36,419 nucleotides of DNA, taken from assembly GCA_030679895.1 (NCBI GenBank), contig JAUXSN010000002.1:1-36419 (forward strand), in the 5' to 3' direction. Each line of letters begins with the position of its first letter. The stretch's first letter is position 1. Shown one piece after another: positions 7,260 to 21,125 of this stretch. This DNA comes from Candidatus Moraniibacteriota bacterium (lineage in GTDB: Bacteria; Patescibacteriota; Minisyncoccia; Moranbacterales; UBA11712). The notes under the pieces are model-generated. The model had not been told where the DNA came from and did not search any database. It saw only the letters and a program-made list of their open reading frames with translations. The position numbers and the translations under genes were made by a program.

Positions 7260-8657
7260 TTATTCCACTATAAATTTACCCCGCACCATTCCCATTCCGC
7301 AGCTGAAGGCGATCTCGCCGGATTTTTGAGGAGTGAATTGCACCACATTTTCGCCATACTTCAAATTTTTCGAAATATTGAAAGACGGCACGATGATCGT
7401 GCTGGTGCAGCCGCTGACATTCACACCGTTGATAACCCATCTTACGGGAACACCCTGCTTTATCTTGAAAACGCTCGGTTCAAACCCGCTTGAGGTTACG
7501 TTCATAGTTATGGTTTGTTCGACCTGGCTCGCGGTCTGTTTTTGAACGGGTGCAGTATCGCTTTTTACCGCAATCTCTTTTTTATTGTTATTCGAACTTA
7601 TGACATTTGTCTTCACGCCCTTGAGAGCCAGACCGGAATTGAGCGTATAAATGGCAAAAATTATGATGAGAGCCCCCGCCACTTTTTGAAATACCACGAA
7701 TCCCCGATTTTTTGCGAAGGATGCCGTGATACCCAAAACCAGAAGTGTTGGTACTGTGCCAAGCGCGAAGAGAAACAGGCTCAAGGCGCCAATCAGAAAA
7801 CTGCCGGAAGCCAGCGCGAAGAGCTGCATACTTTGAGTGAACCCGCAGGGAAGAAAAAAACTTAAACCGCCCAGAAGAAAGGGAGCTGCTTTATGTTCCG
7901 AGCGCTTCAATTCTTTCCATTTGCCGCTAAAACTTTTGGGCATTCGAATCCCGACAGCTGAAAGCGAAGGAACAATCCCCAGGATATTCAGTCCCAGCCA
8001 TCCCATAACCACGGCGATGATGATCGTATAGGCGGAAATGAAATTGCCGGATACATTCAGTTCTCCGCCGATGATTCCCAACAGTCCGCCTAAAAGAAAA
8101 AATGCCGCCAATCGTCCGGTATGAAAAAATAAATTCGGCCGGACGGCGCTTTCAAAAAAACCTTTCCCGCTGCTTTGATACTTCTCGGAAAAAGCGATTA
8201 TTACCGCTCCCACCACCGCGAGACACGAAGAGACGGAAGCAACCAGACCGATAAGAAAAGATACTCCGTATGACAGCGTTGCGCTTTTAATATTAATCGC
8301 ATCAACGAAGCTGGCGCTTTGAAAAAGGCGACACAGTAATAAAATGATTAGGGTAATAATGCCCGCGTTCAGCCAGTCCTGCCACGTAGCTTTGTTTTTC
8401 CCGCCATTTTCTTTTTCGGCTTGCCTCGCCGATAGACGGGACGGATTATTTTCAGTAGCGGCATAGCCGTATTTTTTGGCAATTTCTTTTATCGCGTCGA
8501 GATCCGGCTCCGTTTCTTGGTAAAAAATTTCGGCCGTATTGTTTTTCCAATCCACTTTTACATCCGCCACACCGGCGACATTTCTGAATTCACCATCGAG
8601 CAATTTTTCGCAGCTCGCGCAATGCATCCCTTGGATATAGATTTTTTTTGAACGCAT
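7260..8657 (-). CDS. HMA domain - TauE/SafE (DsbD-like) membrane domain - C-terminal cupredoxin-like domain fusion
   Basis: N-term [12 protein letters not shown]; multi-TM core [19 protein letters not shown] and [22 protein letters not shown]-term [25 protein letters not shown]...[20 protein letters not shown]. Confidence 0.85.
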
Positions 8658-8664
8658 ATTTTTT

Positions 8665-8705
8665 CCAAGATCCGACCTTGGGGCGACCCTAAGGTTGGAC
8701 CTTAG
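8665..8705. promoter_or_regulatory. Two tandem related 17-bp palindromes between csoR and the HMA-TauE/SafE fusion gene
   Basis: CCAAGATCCGACCTTGG (8665-8681, near-palindrome) and CTAAGGTTGGACCTTAG (8689-8705, perfect 7-bp arms, 3-nt centre), 24-bp period. Confidence 0.75.
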
Positions 8706-8715
8706 TATATCATTA

Positions 8716-9006
8716 TTATTTCGACAATCTGCTAATATTCAGTATCTCATCGATCATTTCTTGCTTTCGCTTCTCATTCGTCCCCCGCATAGCGCTCACA
8801 AAACAGCTGTTGAGATGCCGCTCCAGCAGCTTATTATTGGCCGACTTCAAAAGGCCGATGACCGCCAAATTCTGCTGGAGGATATCAATGCAGTATTCCT
8901 TATTTTCAACCATTTTTATTACGTTTCCGAGATGGCTATGGGCTTTCTTCAGCGCCGTAATGATTTCTTTATTTTTATCGGATAAATCGGTTTTGACATT
9001 TGACAT
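8716..9006 (-). CDS. csoR: CsoR-family metal-sensing transcriptional repressor
   Basis: Helical DUF156-type protein with Cys-His-Cys pattern YCIDILQQ...LERHLNSCFVSAM; adjacent to copper genes. Confidence 0.85.
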   Translation of the reverse strand: MSNVKTDLSDKNKEIITALKKAHSHLGNVIKMVENKEYCIDILQQNLAVIGLLKSANNKLLERHLNSCFVSAMRGTNEKRKQEMIDEILNISRLSK

Positions 9007-9028
9007 GTGAGTTTTAAGCTTTATTTAT

Positions 9029-9075
9029 TACCTCCCCCCTAGGTATACACTATACTCTACTCCAGATGCTGTCAA
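9029..9075 (-). promoter_or_regulatory. csoR promoter with CsoR-type operator
   Basis: On the minus strand TTGACA (9070-9075), TATAGT (9049-9054), then TACCTAGGGGGGAGGTA (9029-9045), a TACC/GGTA dyad with a G-tract as in CsoR operators. Confidence 0.7.
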
Positions 9076-9125
9076 ATTATTTCAATGACGTTTGGATTTC
9101 TTTCATTTCATGACATTAGCGTACT

Positions 9126-9162
9126 AAATATAGCCAGACGTTTTTGTTTGGCTATATTTTTT
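9126..9162 (+). terminator. Intrinsic-terminator-like hairpin upstream of the metallophosphoesterase gene
   Basis: AAATATAGCCA / TGGCTATATTT 11-bp arms followed by a T-run. Confidence 0.75.
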
Positions 9163-9186
9163 GTCCATCAATGCTATAATAAAAGC

Positions 9187-10293
9187 ATGGAACCTTCTTC
9201 AAAAAAAAAATTGCTCGCAGTCACCATTGCTTTTTCTGTCATGGCTTTTGCCAGTATAGCCTATTTTCTCGTTGCTCCCGAAAAAGAAATAACTGCAGAA
9301 AATAAACCCGCAGCGACAACTCCCCAACTCAAATCATTCCGGGGTGTTTTGGCCAGCACATTGCTTGACGCGAAAGAAGAAGCCGTCAAGATCGGAGAAA
9401 AAATCGGCGAAGCTGTTTCGAATCCGTTCGCCAGCACTCAAAACGATTCTTCTCAAAAGACTTCTTCCGAAACATCCGGTGAAAATAGTTTTTCTTTCGC
9501 GATTCTCGGCGATACACAACGTTTCGATGCCGGAAATCCGCAGGGAAATTTCCAAAAAGCGATGGCAAGCATAACAAAATTAAATCCTGATCTCGTGTTG
9601 GCTGTTGGTGACTTGGTTGAAGGCTGCGACGGAGACAACAAATGTTCTAAAAAATATAGCGACTGGAAAAAAATAGTGGGCTCTCTTTTGCCCAACACCT
9701 ATGCCATGCAGGGCAATCACGACCGCACCGGAGATGACAAAACCGACGATGTCTGGCGGTCCAGTTTCAGTTTCCCGACCAATGGCCCGTCCGGATTTAG
9801 CGAACAGGTCTATTCTTTTGATCATAAGAACTCTCATTTCGTCGTTCTGGACAGTGACAAACCTAAAGAACATCTGGTGAACGGCGAAGAGAGAAGCTGG
9901 CTCGAAAAAGACCTCTCCGCCAACAAAAAAGAAAATACTTTCGTTTTCTTCCACGAACCCGCTTATCCCGTGAGCTCCAAAATTACGGAAAGTCTTGACA
10001 AGGAGCCGACGGAGCGTAACGCCCTTTGGGAAATTTTGGATCGCCATAATGTTACGGCCGTTTTCAACGGGCACGAGCATATTGTCAGCCGCCGCAAAAT
10101 AGATGGAATTTATCAATTCGTTTTCGCCAATACGGATTCTTTCAATCATGATCTTCCGAAGTCCGGCATTGCCGAATACGCCAGCCAGATACAAGGCAGT
10201 TCCGGCCTCGTAAAAGTGGATGGGGGGGAAATTACGGTCGAAACCCACGCTCCCAGCGGTACACTCTTGAATTCATTTACTTTTTCGAAATAG
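9187..10293 (+). CDS. Calcineurin-like metallophosphoesterase with N-terminal membrane anchor
   Basis: AILGDTQRFD, VGDLVEG, MQGNHDRTGDD, VFNGHEHI motifs; N-terminal hydrophobic segment. ATG at 9187 preferred to 9085 (preceded by extended -10 TGCTATAAT). Confidence 0.85.
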   Translation: MEPSSKKKLLAVTIAFSVMAFASIAYFLVAPEKEITAENKPAATTPQLKSFRGVLASTLLDAKEEAVKIGEKIGEAVSNPFASTQNDSSQKTSSETSGENSFSFAILGDTQRFDAGNPQGNFQKAMASITKLNPDLVLAVGDLVEGCDGDNKCSKKYSDWKKIVGSLLPNTYAMQGNHDRTGDDKTDDVWRSSFSFPTNGPSGFSEQVYSFDHKNSHFVVLDSDKPKEHLVNGEERSWLEKDLSANKKENTFVFFHEPAYPVSSKITESLDKEPTERNALWEILDRHNVTAVFNGHEHIVSRRKIDGIYQFVFANTDSFNHDLPKSGIAEYASQIQGSSGLVKVDGGEITVETHAPSGTLLNSFTFSK

Positions 10294-10416: not shown

Positions 10417-11073
10417 TTACAAAAGTTTTTCCCAGTCTCCTTCCTCGAAATCCAGAAGTGACGGCAAGATCAAGTCCGCTATTGCCAGTTTCGGATGATC
10501 AAAAAACATTTCCTCCGGAACGCAGACGCATTTCATGCGCGCGGACTTCGCCGCCAGAAGCCCGTTGAAAGAATCCTCGAAGGCAAGACAATATTCCGGA
10601 GCGACATCGAGCATTTTTGCCGTCGTGAGATATACTCCCGGATGCGGTTTTCCATGCTCTTCGAATTCCGCGGAGTAAATTTCGTCAAAATATTCTCCTA
10701 TTCCCAGTTTTTCGACGGCAGCGTCAATTATCAACATAACCGACGAAGAGGCTAGGGCCATTTTTACATTTTTTTTCTTCATCATCTCCAGTATTTGCCT
10801 CGTGCCTGGCATTTCAACGCCCCTGGCCCTGACTCGCGAGATAAGATCCGCGACAAGCGCGTTCTCAAGTTCTTTCTTGGATGGAGTAGTCCAGGGTTTT
10901 ATGTTGAACCAGTGGTCGACAATTTTGTCGACTCTCAGGCCTGCAGTTTCAACAACCTGCGATTTGTCCAGATTAAGACCAGCCATCTTAGCGGTCTCGA
11001 TTTCCGCCTCCCACCAAAGCGGTTCTGAATCAATAAGAAGACCATCCATATCGAATATGACTGCTTTTATCAT
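10417..11073 (-). CDS. HAD-superfamily hydrolase (beta-phosphoglucomutase-like subfamily)
   Basis: AVIFDMDGLLIDSEPLWWEAE; LASSS; EDSFNGLLAAKSARM. Confidence 0.88.
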   Translation of the reverse strand: MIKAVIFDMDGLLIDSEPLWWEAEIETAKMAGLNLDKSQVVETAGLRVDKIVDHWFNIKPWTTPSKKELENALVADLISRVRARGVEMPGTRQILEMMKKKNVKMALASSSVMLIIDAAVEKLGIGEYFDEIYSAEFEEHGKPHPGVYLTTAKMLDVAPEYCLAFEDSFNGLLAAKSARMKCVCVPEEMFFDHPKLAIADLILPSLLDFEEGDWEKLL

Positions 11074-11156: not shown

Positions 11157-11186
11157 ATCCTATCACCAAAACGCCTTTTTTATCAA
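11157..11186 (-). promoter_or_regulatory. Sigma-70-type promoter upstream of the HAD hydrolase gene
   Basis: Minus strand TTGATA-N18-TAGGAT; near-identical to the box at 11663-11691. Confidence 0.7.
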
Positions 11187-11656
11187 ATAAAAATGGGGGG
11201 ATATCAAGGCATCACGATTGCCGACATCCCCCCAGGCCAAACACGCCTTCTCCCCTTGAGATGGACTATAAAGTCGCCCCAGGACTCATTAGCCCACCGC
11301 TCTCGGGATCCTTACGGATGAGGCCCAAGAACCGTTCCAGATAAAACTGGCTCACGCATACTGCAAGAGAGGCGCGAGAGTTGCTTCGTGCAGATCATGA
11401 CATAACCCCCAAAAAGAGAAAGAGGTTCGCCGAATGAGGGCGATTATCCCGGGATATACTCCACCGGGTCAGATGGAGTATTATTCAACCGAGATAAATG
11501 TTTCAATGATCCGCTCCAAACACAATCTCTCTATTTGCGGGATATCCTACCGGACGAAAGGCCACCCTAGCGGCGGCACGCTATCCATGTCAACCCCACA
11601 AAGTTCCTTATAAAGAACGACAATGACTGTTATGAATATAACAGGCTCAATTTCTT
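11186..11656 (-). ncRNA. Unidentified structured noncoding RNA candidate (~470 nt)
   Basis: No plausible CDS; minus-strand promoter at 11663-11691, multiple hairpins (CTGTTAT/ATAACAG, GCCGCC/GGTGGC, TACTCCA/TGGAGTA with possible CCCGG/CCGGG pseudoknot, ATCC-GTAA-GGAT, GACT/AGTC, TCTC/GAGA), G/C-rich terminator at 11190-11233. Confidence 0.65.
11188..11233 (-). terminator. Intrinsic terminator of the ncRNA candidate
   Basis: Minus strand GGGGGGAT...GGCA-ATCGTGA-TGCC...ATCCCCCC followed by ATTTTTATTT. Confidence 0.8.
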
Positions 11657-11662
11657 GCCCCT

Positions 11663-11691
11663 ATTCTATCTCAAAACACCTTTTTTATCAA
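11663..11691 (-). promoter_or_regulatory. Sigma-70-type promoter of the ncRNA candidate
   Basis: Minus strand TTGATA-N17-TAGAAT. Confidence 0.7.
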
Positions 11692-11695
11692 GAAA

Positions 11696-11717
11696 GAACA
11701 GGATTTGATCCCTGTTC
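11696..11717 (-). terminator. Hairpin terminator downstream of the SHOCT-domain gene
   Basis: Minus strand GAACAGG-N8-CCTGTTC followed by TTTCTT. Confidence 0.7.
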
Positions 11718-11742
11718 TCGCCGTAAACTAAAATCGGCTTTG

Positions 11743-11997
11743 TTATTCCAAATCTTTTTTCATTTTCTCAAAATCTTCTTTAGTTACCTCTCCTTTGGCA
11801 TAGCGTTCTTTGAGAATATCCAAAGCGCCCTTTTCCTTGTGCTTATGTTCGCCAAGATTATGCCAGCAACCATGACCTGAAAAACCGCGGATCAAGGCAA
11901 AAATCGCAAAAATAATCAGCGCCCAAAAAATAAGCATGGAGATGAAACCAAAGCCAAAACCGATTCCTCCCATATGCCCGTAATAATTTCCCATCAT
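11743..11997 (-). CDS. Small membrane protein with C-terminal SHOCT-like domain
   Basis: One TM helix plus [27 protein letters not shown], the SHOCT signature. Confidence 0.85.
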
Positions 11998-12077
11998 ATA
12001 TGTATTTTACTATTTACCTCAACAACTATTACGTTTCGGGCATCTCTTTATTTCAACCGCTTTTCTTAACATATAAA

Positions 12078-12117
12078 AAGCCCCGGGGAGGAAGAACATT
12101 TCTCTCCAGGGCTAAAA
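12078..12117 (-). terminator. Intrinsic terminator after the YkgJ-like gene
   Basis: Minus strand AGCCCTGGAGAG...CTCCCCGGGGCT then TTTTTAT. Confidence 0.7.
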
Positions 12118-12531
12118 GGTTATCCAGCGTCCTCCCTCCATTATGGGACAGTTTGGTAAAAGAGACGTGCCGAATATACGGCAGGCGATTGGCCGATACT
12201 CGTAAATCGCGCATTTGTTTTCTCGATTAAGGAACACGCACTTAATCCATTTAATGCGTTTATTGACAGCATAAATAATTGCTTCACACATCAGCTCTTC
12301 AATTTCCCTTTCCGTGGCCTCCTTTTTTATTCTTTGAAAGATTTTTAGGAGCGGGAAAATATAATATCCCCTGTTTCGCCCGCCGATCAGTTTCACGATT
12401 TTGCAGTTGTACCGACGGAATAGGCCCAGTTCCTCGGCTCTCTGGAATGAATCCCGATCCCAAAGAGTGAAAATTCCACAGCAAAATGCTTTGCAAGGCC
12501 AGCCTCTCGTGCAGGGTGGTGTTTGGTACAT
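12112..12531 (-). CDS. YkgJ-family cysteine cluster protein
   Basis: Cys-rich: CTRGWPCKAFCCG, CVFLNRENKCAIYEYRPIACRIFG. Confidence 0.75.
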   Translation of the reverse strand: MYQTPPCTRGWPCKAFCCGIFTLWDRDSFQRAEELGLFRRYNCKIVKLIGGRNRGYYIFPLLKIFQRIKKEATEREIEELMCEAIIYAVNKRIKWIKCVFLNRENKCAIYEYRPIACRIFGTSLLPNCPIMEGGRWITF

Positions 12532-12636
12532 ATTGCCCTCCTCAATATGTAAGGTTGATATGATTTTTGAAGTAATTCATCCTACCAAAGATCTCTGTGT
12601 TTTTCAAATTTGTTCTAGATACACTATACTAAATAC

Positions 12637-13467
12637 ATGCCACAAGCTTGGCAAAATATTCCCGATCACCTGAATCCAATTGCATTCCGCCTCGGCCCGG
12701 TTGAGATTTTCTGGTACGGAATAATGTATCTGGTTGCTTTTGCGATTGTTTATTATTTGGTCCGTTACCGAATCAGAACTGAAAAAATGGGAATTTCTTT
12801 TGAAACCGTCCAGGATTTTTTTCCTTGGGCAATTGTGGGCTTGTTATTAGGCGCGCGGCTCGGAGATGTTTTCATTTATGACTGGAGTTATTTTTCGAAG
12901 CATCCGCTTGAGATATTTTTGCCTTTTGATATTTATAATCATTGGCAATATATCGGGATTTACGGGATGTCGTATTTTGGGGGACTCGTCGGCCTTGCGA
13001 TTGCGCTTTATCTCTTTTGTAAAATTAAGAAAATTAATCTTTTGGAGTTTAGCGATTTGTTCTCCCCCGCCGTCCCGCTTGCTTTCACTTTCGGCCGATT
13101 GGGAAATTTCATAAACGGGGAATTGTACGGACGAATTACAAATAAATTTTGGGGAATGTATTTCCCGGCTGATTTTTCCGGCCAGCTTCGCCATCCTTCG
13201 CAGCTTTATGAAGCGCTTCTTGAGGGAATTTTGCTGTTCGCTATTTTGTGGAATCTTCGCAAAAAAAATTACCCGGCCGGGTATTTAACTGCTTTTTATC
13301 TCATTGGCTACGGAATCGCCCGCTTCACCGGCGAATTTTTCCGTGAGCCGGATAAAAGCTGGTTCTTCAACCCGAAAATGTTATCGAGCGGACAAGTATT
13401 TTCCCTTCTTTTGATTTTTGCCGCCCTATTTTTACTAATACTGAAAAGATCCAAAAGGCGTGCTTAG
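12637..13467 (+). CDS. lgt: Prolipoprotein diacylglyceryl transferase
   Basis: FWYGIMYLVAF, GRLGNFINGELYGR signature, RHPSQLYEALLEG, multi-TM. Confidence 0.95.
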   Translation: MPQAWQNIPDHLNPIAFRLGPVEIFWYGIMYLVAFAIVYYLVRYRIRTEKMGISFETVQDFFPWAIVGLLLGARLGDVFIYDWSYFSKHPLEIFLPFDIYNHWQYIGIYGMSYFGGLVGLAIALYLFCKIKKINLLEFSDLFSPAVPLAFTFGRLGNFINGELYGRITNKFWGMYFPADFSGQLRHPSQLYEALLEGILLFAILWNLRKKNYPAGYLTAFYLIGYGIARFTGEFFREPDKSWFFNPKMLSSGQVFSLLLIFAALFLLILKRSKRRA

Positions 13468-20563: not shown

Positions 20564-20673
20564 ATCCCTTATCTCCCTATATCAGTCAAGAATTTTTCTT
20601 AATTTTAAAAGAGGAAACCTCCTGGCCCCTCCTCTGAAACTAGACTAACATTCGGCGATAATTATAACAAGTA

Positions 20674-20702
20674 TTGACAAAAACGCCTTAAAATGCTAAT
20701 AT
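20674..20702 (+). promoter_or_regulatory. Sigma-70 promoter for the zinc-ribbon/RGG gene
   Basis: TTGACA-N17-TAATAT. Confidence 0.75.
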
Positions 20703-20835
20703 TCCTTCCAGTTATCGAATTAGGCGTAGTATCCAAATATTACTTTATATAAGGAATACGAAAAGTCGTCGCCTAAGTGAGAGCTATCTTGAGCCGAGGG
20801 CTTCAGGATTATTAAAAAATTAGGCGAGACGAAAA

Positions 20836-21066
20836 ATGGATTATCAAAATCGTCCCCAAAGGCAGATGTTTGATGTCGCCGAACTCAACCTCAAATGCGC
20901 TGAGTGCGGAGTAGACATCAAAGAACTTCCTTTCCAGCCGACCCAGAAAGACGACGGAACTTATGGCAGAATTTATTGCCAGGAGTGCAACCGAAAACGT
21001 CGAAGAGACACTGGCGGCGGAAATCGCGGGGGCTTTGGTGGTGGCGGTCGAAGAGACCGATACTAA
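20836..21066 (+). CDS. Small zinc-ribbon protein (CxxC...CxxC) with Arg/Gly-rich tail
   Basis: LKCAECGVDIKELPFQPTQKDDGTYGRIYCQECNRKRRRDTGGGNRGGFGGGGRRDRY. Confidence 0.8.
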   Translation: MDYQNRPQRQMFDVAELNLKCAECGVDIKELPFQPTQKDDGTYGRIYCQECNRKRRRDTGGGNRGGFGGGGRRDRY

Positions 21067-21078
21067 TCGAAACAAAAA

Positions 21079-21110
21079 AAACCGTTCTTCATTGAGCGGT
21101 TTTTTTGTTG
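21079..21110 (+). terminator. Intrinsic terminator after the zinc-ribbon gene
   Basis: AACCG...CGGTT then TTTTTT. Confidence 0.75.
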
Positions 21111-21125
21111 TAAAAATAGTTTGGC

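Follow-up and report, generated by a model that had tools for sequence, protein, structure and literature searches.

Organization of the locus

The window, that is, the whole stretch of DNA analysed here, is one whole contig of 36,419 nucleotides from a Candidatus Moraniibacteriota genome of 1.03 Mb. On its minus strand, a gene for a small SHOCT-domain protein and the terminator of that gene are followed by a promoter (P1), a predicted structured RNA of about 470 nt, a 12-bp terminator, a second promoter (P2), and a gene for a HAD-family hydrolase (Table 1). The end of the SHOCT terminator directly precedes P1, and the ends of the RNA are placed from the positions of its promoter and terminator. 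An earlier note, made from the sequence alone, had claimed that no plausible coding sequence lies between the SHOCT and HAD genes and that the minus strand carries a complete transcription unit. Both claims held. No open reading frame of at least 30 amino acids occurs on the minus strand at the RNA locus, and the proposed promoter and terminator are present and isolate the unit on both sides. The short reading frames of this RNA and of the related RNA described below, compared by eye, revealed no obvious common peptide. A simple terminator scan did not list the terminator hairpin of the RNA (stem 11195-11233) because its loop is a hairpin too. P2 comes after this terminator and matches P1 at 76% over 37 nt, the two lying 506 nt apart; from this arrangement, the HAD gene is predicted to be transcribed separately from the RNA. 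The neighbors of the RNA are the SHOCT, HAD, and lgt genes, and an Rfam 15 scan of the window gave no tRNA or other match.

Table 1. Features at the RNA locus, in window coordinates
Feature	Position	Strand	Evidence
SHOCT-domain small protein, gene upstream of RNA	11743-11997	-	Pfam PF09851, E 2.9e-9
Terminator hairpin of SHOCT gene, 9-bp stem then TTTCTT	11694-11719	-	Fold, -12.5 kcal/mol
Promoter P1 of RNA, TTGATA-N17-TAGAAT then AGGGGC	11663-11691	-	10/12 consensus
Structured noncoding RNA, ~470 nt	11186-11656	-	z -5.42; homologue G001:C71:9765-10210
Hairpin H1, CTGTTAT/ATAACAG	11627-11644	-	p 0.94; weak support in G001
Hairpin H2, GTTCTT/AGGAAC (GTTCTTTATAAGGAAC)	11603-11618	-	p 0.92; 5/6 pairs kept in G001
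Domain 1, three stacked helices (10+5+6 bp)	11534-11602	-	Covariance model; 21/21 pairs kept in G001, 5 by double changes
Domain 2, long closing helix, nested 9-bp and 10-bp hairpin (11444-11497), CGCC/GGCG hairpin (11427-11443)	11376-11531	-	Fold, structural alignment
Domain 3, branched, hairpins CCAG-UUUUAU-CUGG and AUCC-GUAA-GGAU; internal pairing tentative	11243-11375	-	Fold, structural alignment
Intrinsic terminator of RNA, 12-bp stem and U-rich tail (11193-11187)	11194-11234	-	p 0.97 in fold; inverted repeat
Promoter P2, TTGATA-N18-TAGGAT, for HAD gene	11157-11186	-	Second copy of P1 element
HAD-family hydrolase, gene downstream of RNA	10417-11073	-	Pfam PF13419, E 2.6e-28

Copies of a 35-bp promoter-like element (TTGATAAAAn6TTTTGGGATAGGATAGGGGC), far longer than the sigma-70 consensus, lie on the minus strand of the window at 11691-11657 and 11186-11151. 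Of 20 genomes searched, 5 carried the element, in one to three copies each, and all 5 belong to the RNA host's family; a control pattern gave none. Other copies are at G001:C30:7717-7751, G001:C71:10587-10621, G002:C18:2577-2611, and G006:C2:290296-290330, and in G007 at C2:11577-11611 and twice in C28. It precedes unrelated genes, often with an overlap between it and the U-run of the terminator before it, and could be an operator common to them or a promoter of an unusual type. Where the element is adjacent to lgt (window 11657-12637; G001:C30, ~7700; G004:C34, 7800-8690), the cargo differs in each genome: the RNA and then the HAD gene in the window, a HAD-like gene in G001, and in G004 a gene, possibly aspartic-protease-like, with a promoter on either side.

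Predicted fold of the RNA

The minus strand of the RNA locus folds at -189 kcal/mol (z -5.42), which none of 100 shuffled sequences equalled; the plus strand gave z -2.62. Among 152 segments tiled over both strands of the contig (mean z -0.74, SD 1.39), the RNA ranked first. Nine of the elements listed in the earlier note were tested as strings on the minus strand and all were present, including, besides the promoter, the terminator, and the pairings of H1 and of the near-palindrome in H2, GCCGCC-GCTAG-GGTGGC (11561-11577), TACTCCA..TGGAGTA (11457-11480), ATCC-GTAA-GGAT (11308-11319) within CTCAT/ATGAG (11285-11322), and GACT/AGTC (11264-11275). A pseudoknot proposed between the loop CCCGG and a downstream CCGGG was not borne out: that CCGGG forms a 9-bp helix with UUAUCUCGG (p 0.96), and a 7-bp helix occupies the equivalent site in the related RNA. 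Domain 1 carries the conserved sequence UUUGYGGGRUU...AUCCYGCRA.

Second to the RNA in folding strength on this contig is a stretch at 20641-21111 on the plus strand (z -5.08). It contains at 20836-21067 a gene for a zinc-finger-like protein of ~76 amino acids (zf_Tbcl_2, E 5e-5, below the cut-off). The leader of this gene, ~130 nt long, has two copies of TTAGGCG and one of the complement CGCCTAA, a composition that suggests possible alternative pairings.

A homologue in a sister species

The only other genome of the genus that was compared is the Ca. Moraniibacteriota fen_1326 MAG (G001), and it contains a related RNA on contig C71 (PMJF01000009.1). An nhmmer search over loci brought in by BLAST promoter matches found this copy at E 7.5e-8, promoter included. 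It is an RNA of ~440 nt (z -5.86), preceded by hexamers and spacing identical to those of P1 and ended by its own equivalent 12-bp terminator with eight U residues. It is flanked by a radical-SAM gene and, at a greater distance, by a gene for a D-Ala-D-Ala dipeptidase, which has a separate copy of the promoter element ~370 nt further along.

A covariance model of domain 1, built from the window alone with the promoter excluded, gave the G001 copy (30.8 bits) as the sole match at an E value of 10 or less in 1.18 Mb, a search space to which a third genome of the family contributed the greater part of its sequence. The model alignment of the window and G001 keeps 26 of 27 pairs in both, five of them by two-sided changes, a covariation limited by there being two sequences only; 98.1% of cells are paired, and sliding the partners as a control lowers pairing to 42 to 58%. 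With a LocARNA-like aligner written for this analysis, the two whole RNAs scored 0.82 per nt, compared with 0.38 to 0.65 in 30 RNase P and tmRNA comparisons and 0.88 to 1.05 for true homologue pairs. Against shuffled G001 sequence, the score had a z of 6.1 (4.8 on structure only), where the shuffles lose stability too. Domains 2 and 3 alone, after removal of domain 1 and the terminator, placed G001 first of 239 (0.78, the next being 0.66), and the same result was obtained with the sequence terms off. At the level of sequence analysis, these results show homology of domain 1 between the window and G001, and the predicted fold strongly suggests homology beyond it. The two grades are kept apart because a covariance model of domain 2 (R3) did not recover G001 and because the register of domain 3 is ambiguous, the aligner's differing from the one set by eye.

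Over its full length the RNA has a plain identity of 0.64 between the two species, against a shuffled mean of 0.62, and outside domain 1 the copies are barely alignable. Between the same two species, RNase P RNA is 86% identical and tmRNA 94% identical, and the divergence of the window RNA is unusual for a housekeeping RNA. Overall identity at background, the failure of R3, and the occurrence of random matches to the short anchor pattern within genes are the points in favor of reading the G001 likeness as chance and the region as a GC-rich, well-folding spacer. We consider this very improbable in view of the independent model match with intact inner helices, a structural score that exceeds all controls, and the promoter hexamers and terminator layout common to both copies.

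Distribution among relatives

BLAST of the window RNA against 57 relatives returned promoter element matches only, and BLAST of the G001 copy against 385 genomes returned two short matches, which were judged from their context to lie within coding sequence. Covariance model R1 found the window and G001 only among 114 relatives and one extra match (E 5.3) in 36 genomes under laxer filters; across 388 genomes of the class, it gave no convincing further member. The three R1 searches together yielded two weak matches, the one at E 5.3 and another at E 0.32. Model R2, run with strict filters over the 132-genome order, missed even G001, so sensitivity to diverged copies is low and absence elsewhere is poorly supported. 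The anchor pattern had one real match in the genome contigs (PMJF01000009.1); two others were rejected on failing inner helices. One match in viral contigs lies inside a phosphoesterase-like gene. Phage and plasmid records gave no match. The structural aligner was also run over 516 intergenic segments of G006, covering most of the long non-coding regions of that genome, and the best of them (0.70) was rejected, being at the end of an apparent coding sequence. In the same genome, locus L091 (G006:C2), at 7514-9725, matches the 16S rRNA gene over 1894 nt; the 3' end of this match is overlapped by one to a group I intron (63.7 bits).

The RNA is single copy in each of the two genomes. The earlier reading of the locus as an undescribed noncoding RNA is supported by the homologue with compensatory changes, found at another locus of the sister species; two members, in one genus so far, are known.

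Genomic position and alternative explanations

The counterpart of the window locus in G001 is on contig C30, where the Lgt proteins are 69% identical and the same two genes follow. There the promoter is present and is followed by the HAD-like gene, without the RNA. Because this counterpart lacks the RNA and the identity of the two copies is at background, we conclude that the RNA occupies non-corresponding places in the two genomes and is evolving fast.

Non-syntenic sites in two sister species, together with a syntenic lgt locus in G001 that has the promoter and not the RNA, would also suit a mobile element that moves between loci (an intron, a transposon guide RNA, or a phage RNA), with the RNA as its remnant or its RNA component. 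This origin is improbable, as there is one copy per genome, no Rfam intron or guide-RNA match, and no match in the phage and plasmid records, and among the proteins inspected or Pfam-tested beside either copy, no mobile-element gene such as a transposase, reverse transcriptase, or phage gene was apparent.

A long, riboswitch-like cis-regulatory leader of the HAD gene, in which the hairpin terminates transcription conditionally, would account for an RNA that is on the HAD strand, directly upstream, and ends in a strong terminator. We regard it as distinctly improbable: a full second promoter stands between the terminator and the HAD gene, HAD orthologues in G005, G012, and G011 have no RNA upstream, and the G001 homologue precedes a different gene, the dipeptidase behind its separate promoter, such that no conserved link to one downstream gene or pathway was found between the two copies. 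The different neighbors in the two species, with the separate HAD promoter, argue against a cis-regulatory leader, and the different neighbors by themselves argue for action in trans.

Among trans-acting RNAs, a rapidly evolving regulatory small RNA that pairs mainly with mRNAs, and whose fold serves stability, would fit the fast divergence, the non-syntenic sites, and the possession of a promoter and terminator. It is an unlikely explanation here, because the size and the multi-domain fold kept in both copies exceed what such an RNA needs and the segment with the highest conservation is one that is base-paired. The size, the conservation of the fold, and the pairing within the conserved core would favor a structural RNA that acts in trans rather than an RNA that works by pairing.

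Proposed nature of the RNA

The locus has a sigma-70-type promoter and a terminator of its own and is free of plausible coding sequence; its transcribed strand folds strongly, and a homologue elsewhere conserves the fold. These features show, as far as sequence can, a stand-alone gene for a structured noncoding RNA. We think it probable that this free-standing gene specifies a large, trans-acting, fast-evolving structured RNA of a family outside Rfam. The RNA would be made constitutively and would work in trans through its folded form, the likeliest role being that of a scaffold binding to a protein or to itself, like other large bacterial noncoding RNAs. Selection appears to keep the fold and the domain 1 sequence as the remainder drifts quickly. 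A more tentative possibility, which we put forward with some doubt, is a new family of large RNAs of Moranbacteria that outpaces RNase P RNA and tmRNA in divergence, keeps a three-domain fold, moves between chromosomal loci with its promoter, and forms, in a bacterium with a reduced genome, the core of a ribonucleoprotein or of a particle made of RNA only. An RNA of 470 nt, kept in a genome of ~1 Mb and with a fold common to a sister species, gives RNA sequencing, structure probing, and cryo-electron microscopy a concrete target. It also indicates that large noncoding RNAs can escape sequence search even between species with 94% identical tmRNAs.

Comparison with known RNA families

The earlier note could not match the RNA to RNase P RNA, tmRNA, SRP RNA, 6S RNA, or group I or II introns, and Rfam 15 agrees. 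No family matched the window at gathering score, and matches up to an E value of 10 in the window and the G001 copies were unrelated noise only. RNase P RNA class A and tmRNA are, like the window RNA, structured bacterial RNAs of similar length, but their structural alignment scores with it are at background. The genome's own RNase P RNA (RF00010; 172.9 bits) is at G000:C35:36548-36956 and its own tmRNA (RF00023; 146.7 bits) at G000:C26:108-505, with no match to either model at the RNA locus. Models for group I and II introns, 6S RNA, and SRP RNA had no match in either copy. The last two are stand-alone bacterial noncoding RNAs, as is the window RNA. 6S RNA is one long hairpin, and the small SRP RNA is ~100 nt, so that neither identity fits a three-domain RNA of 470 nt.

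The OLE, ROOL, GOLLD, and raiA models likewise matched neither copy at E values up to 10. The window RNA resembles OLE, ROOL, and GOLLD in being stand-alone, large, and multi-domain, in its extensive predicted structure, and in that little or nothing is known of its function (PMC12286853). At ~470 nt, it is shorter than the ROOL env-120 RNA of 659 nt and than many GOLLD RNAs, which exceed 800 nt (PMC12286853). It is chromosomal and away from tRNA islands and phage genes, unlike the setting of ROOL and GOLLD, and its host is a candidate phyla bacterium, whereas OLE, ROOL, and GOLLD belong to Gram-positive bacteria or phages. In the literature that we searched, no structured RNA particular to Moranbacteria or to other candidate phyla bacteria was reported. 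The description that suits the window RNA best is that of a new family within a known kind, the stand-alone large structured noncoding RNAs, lying outside the Rfam families tested.
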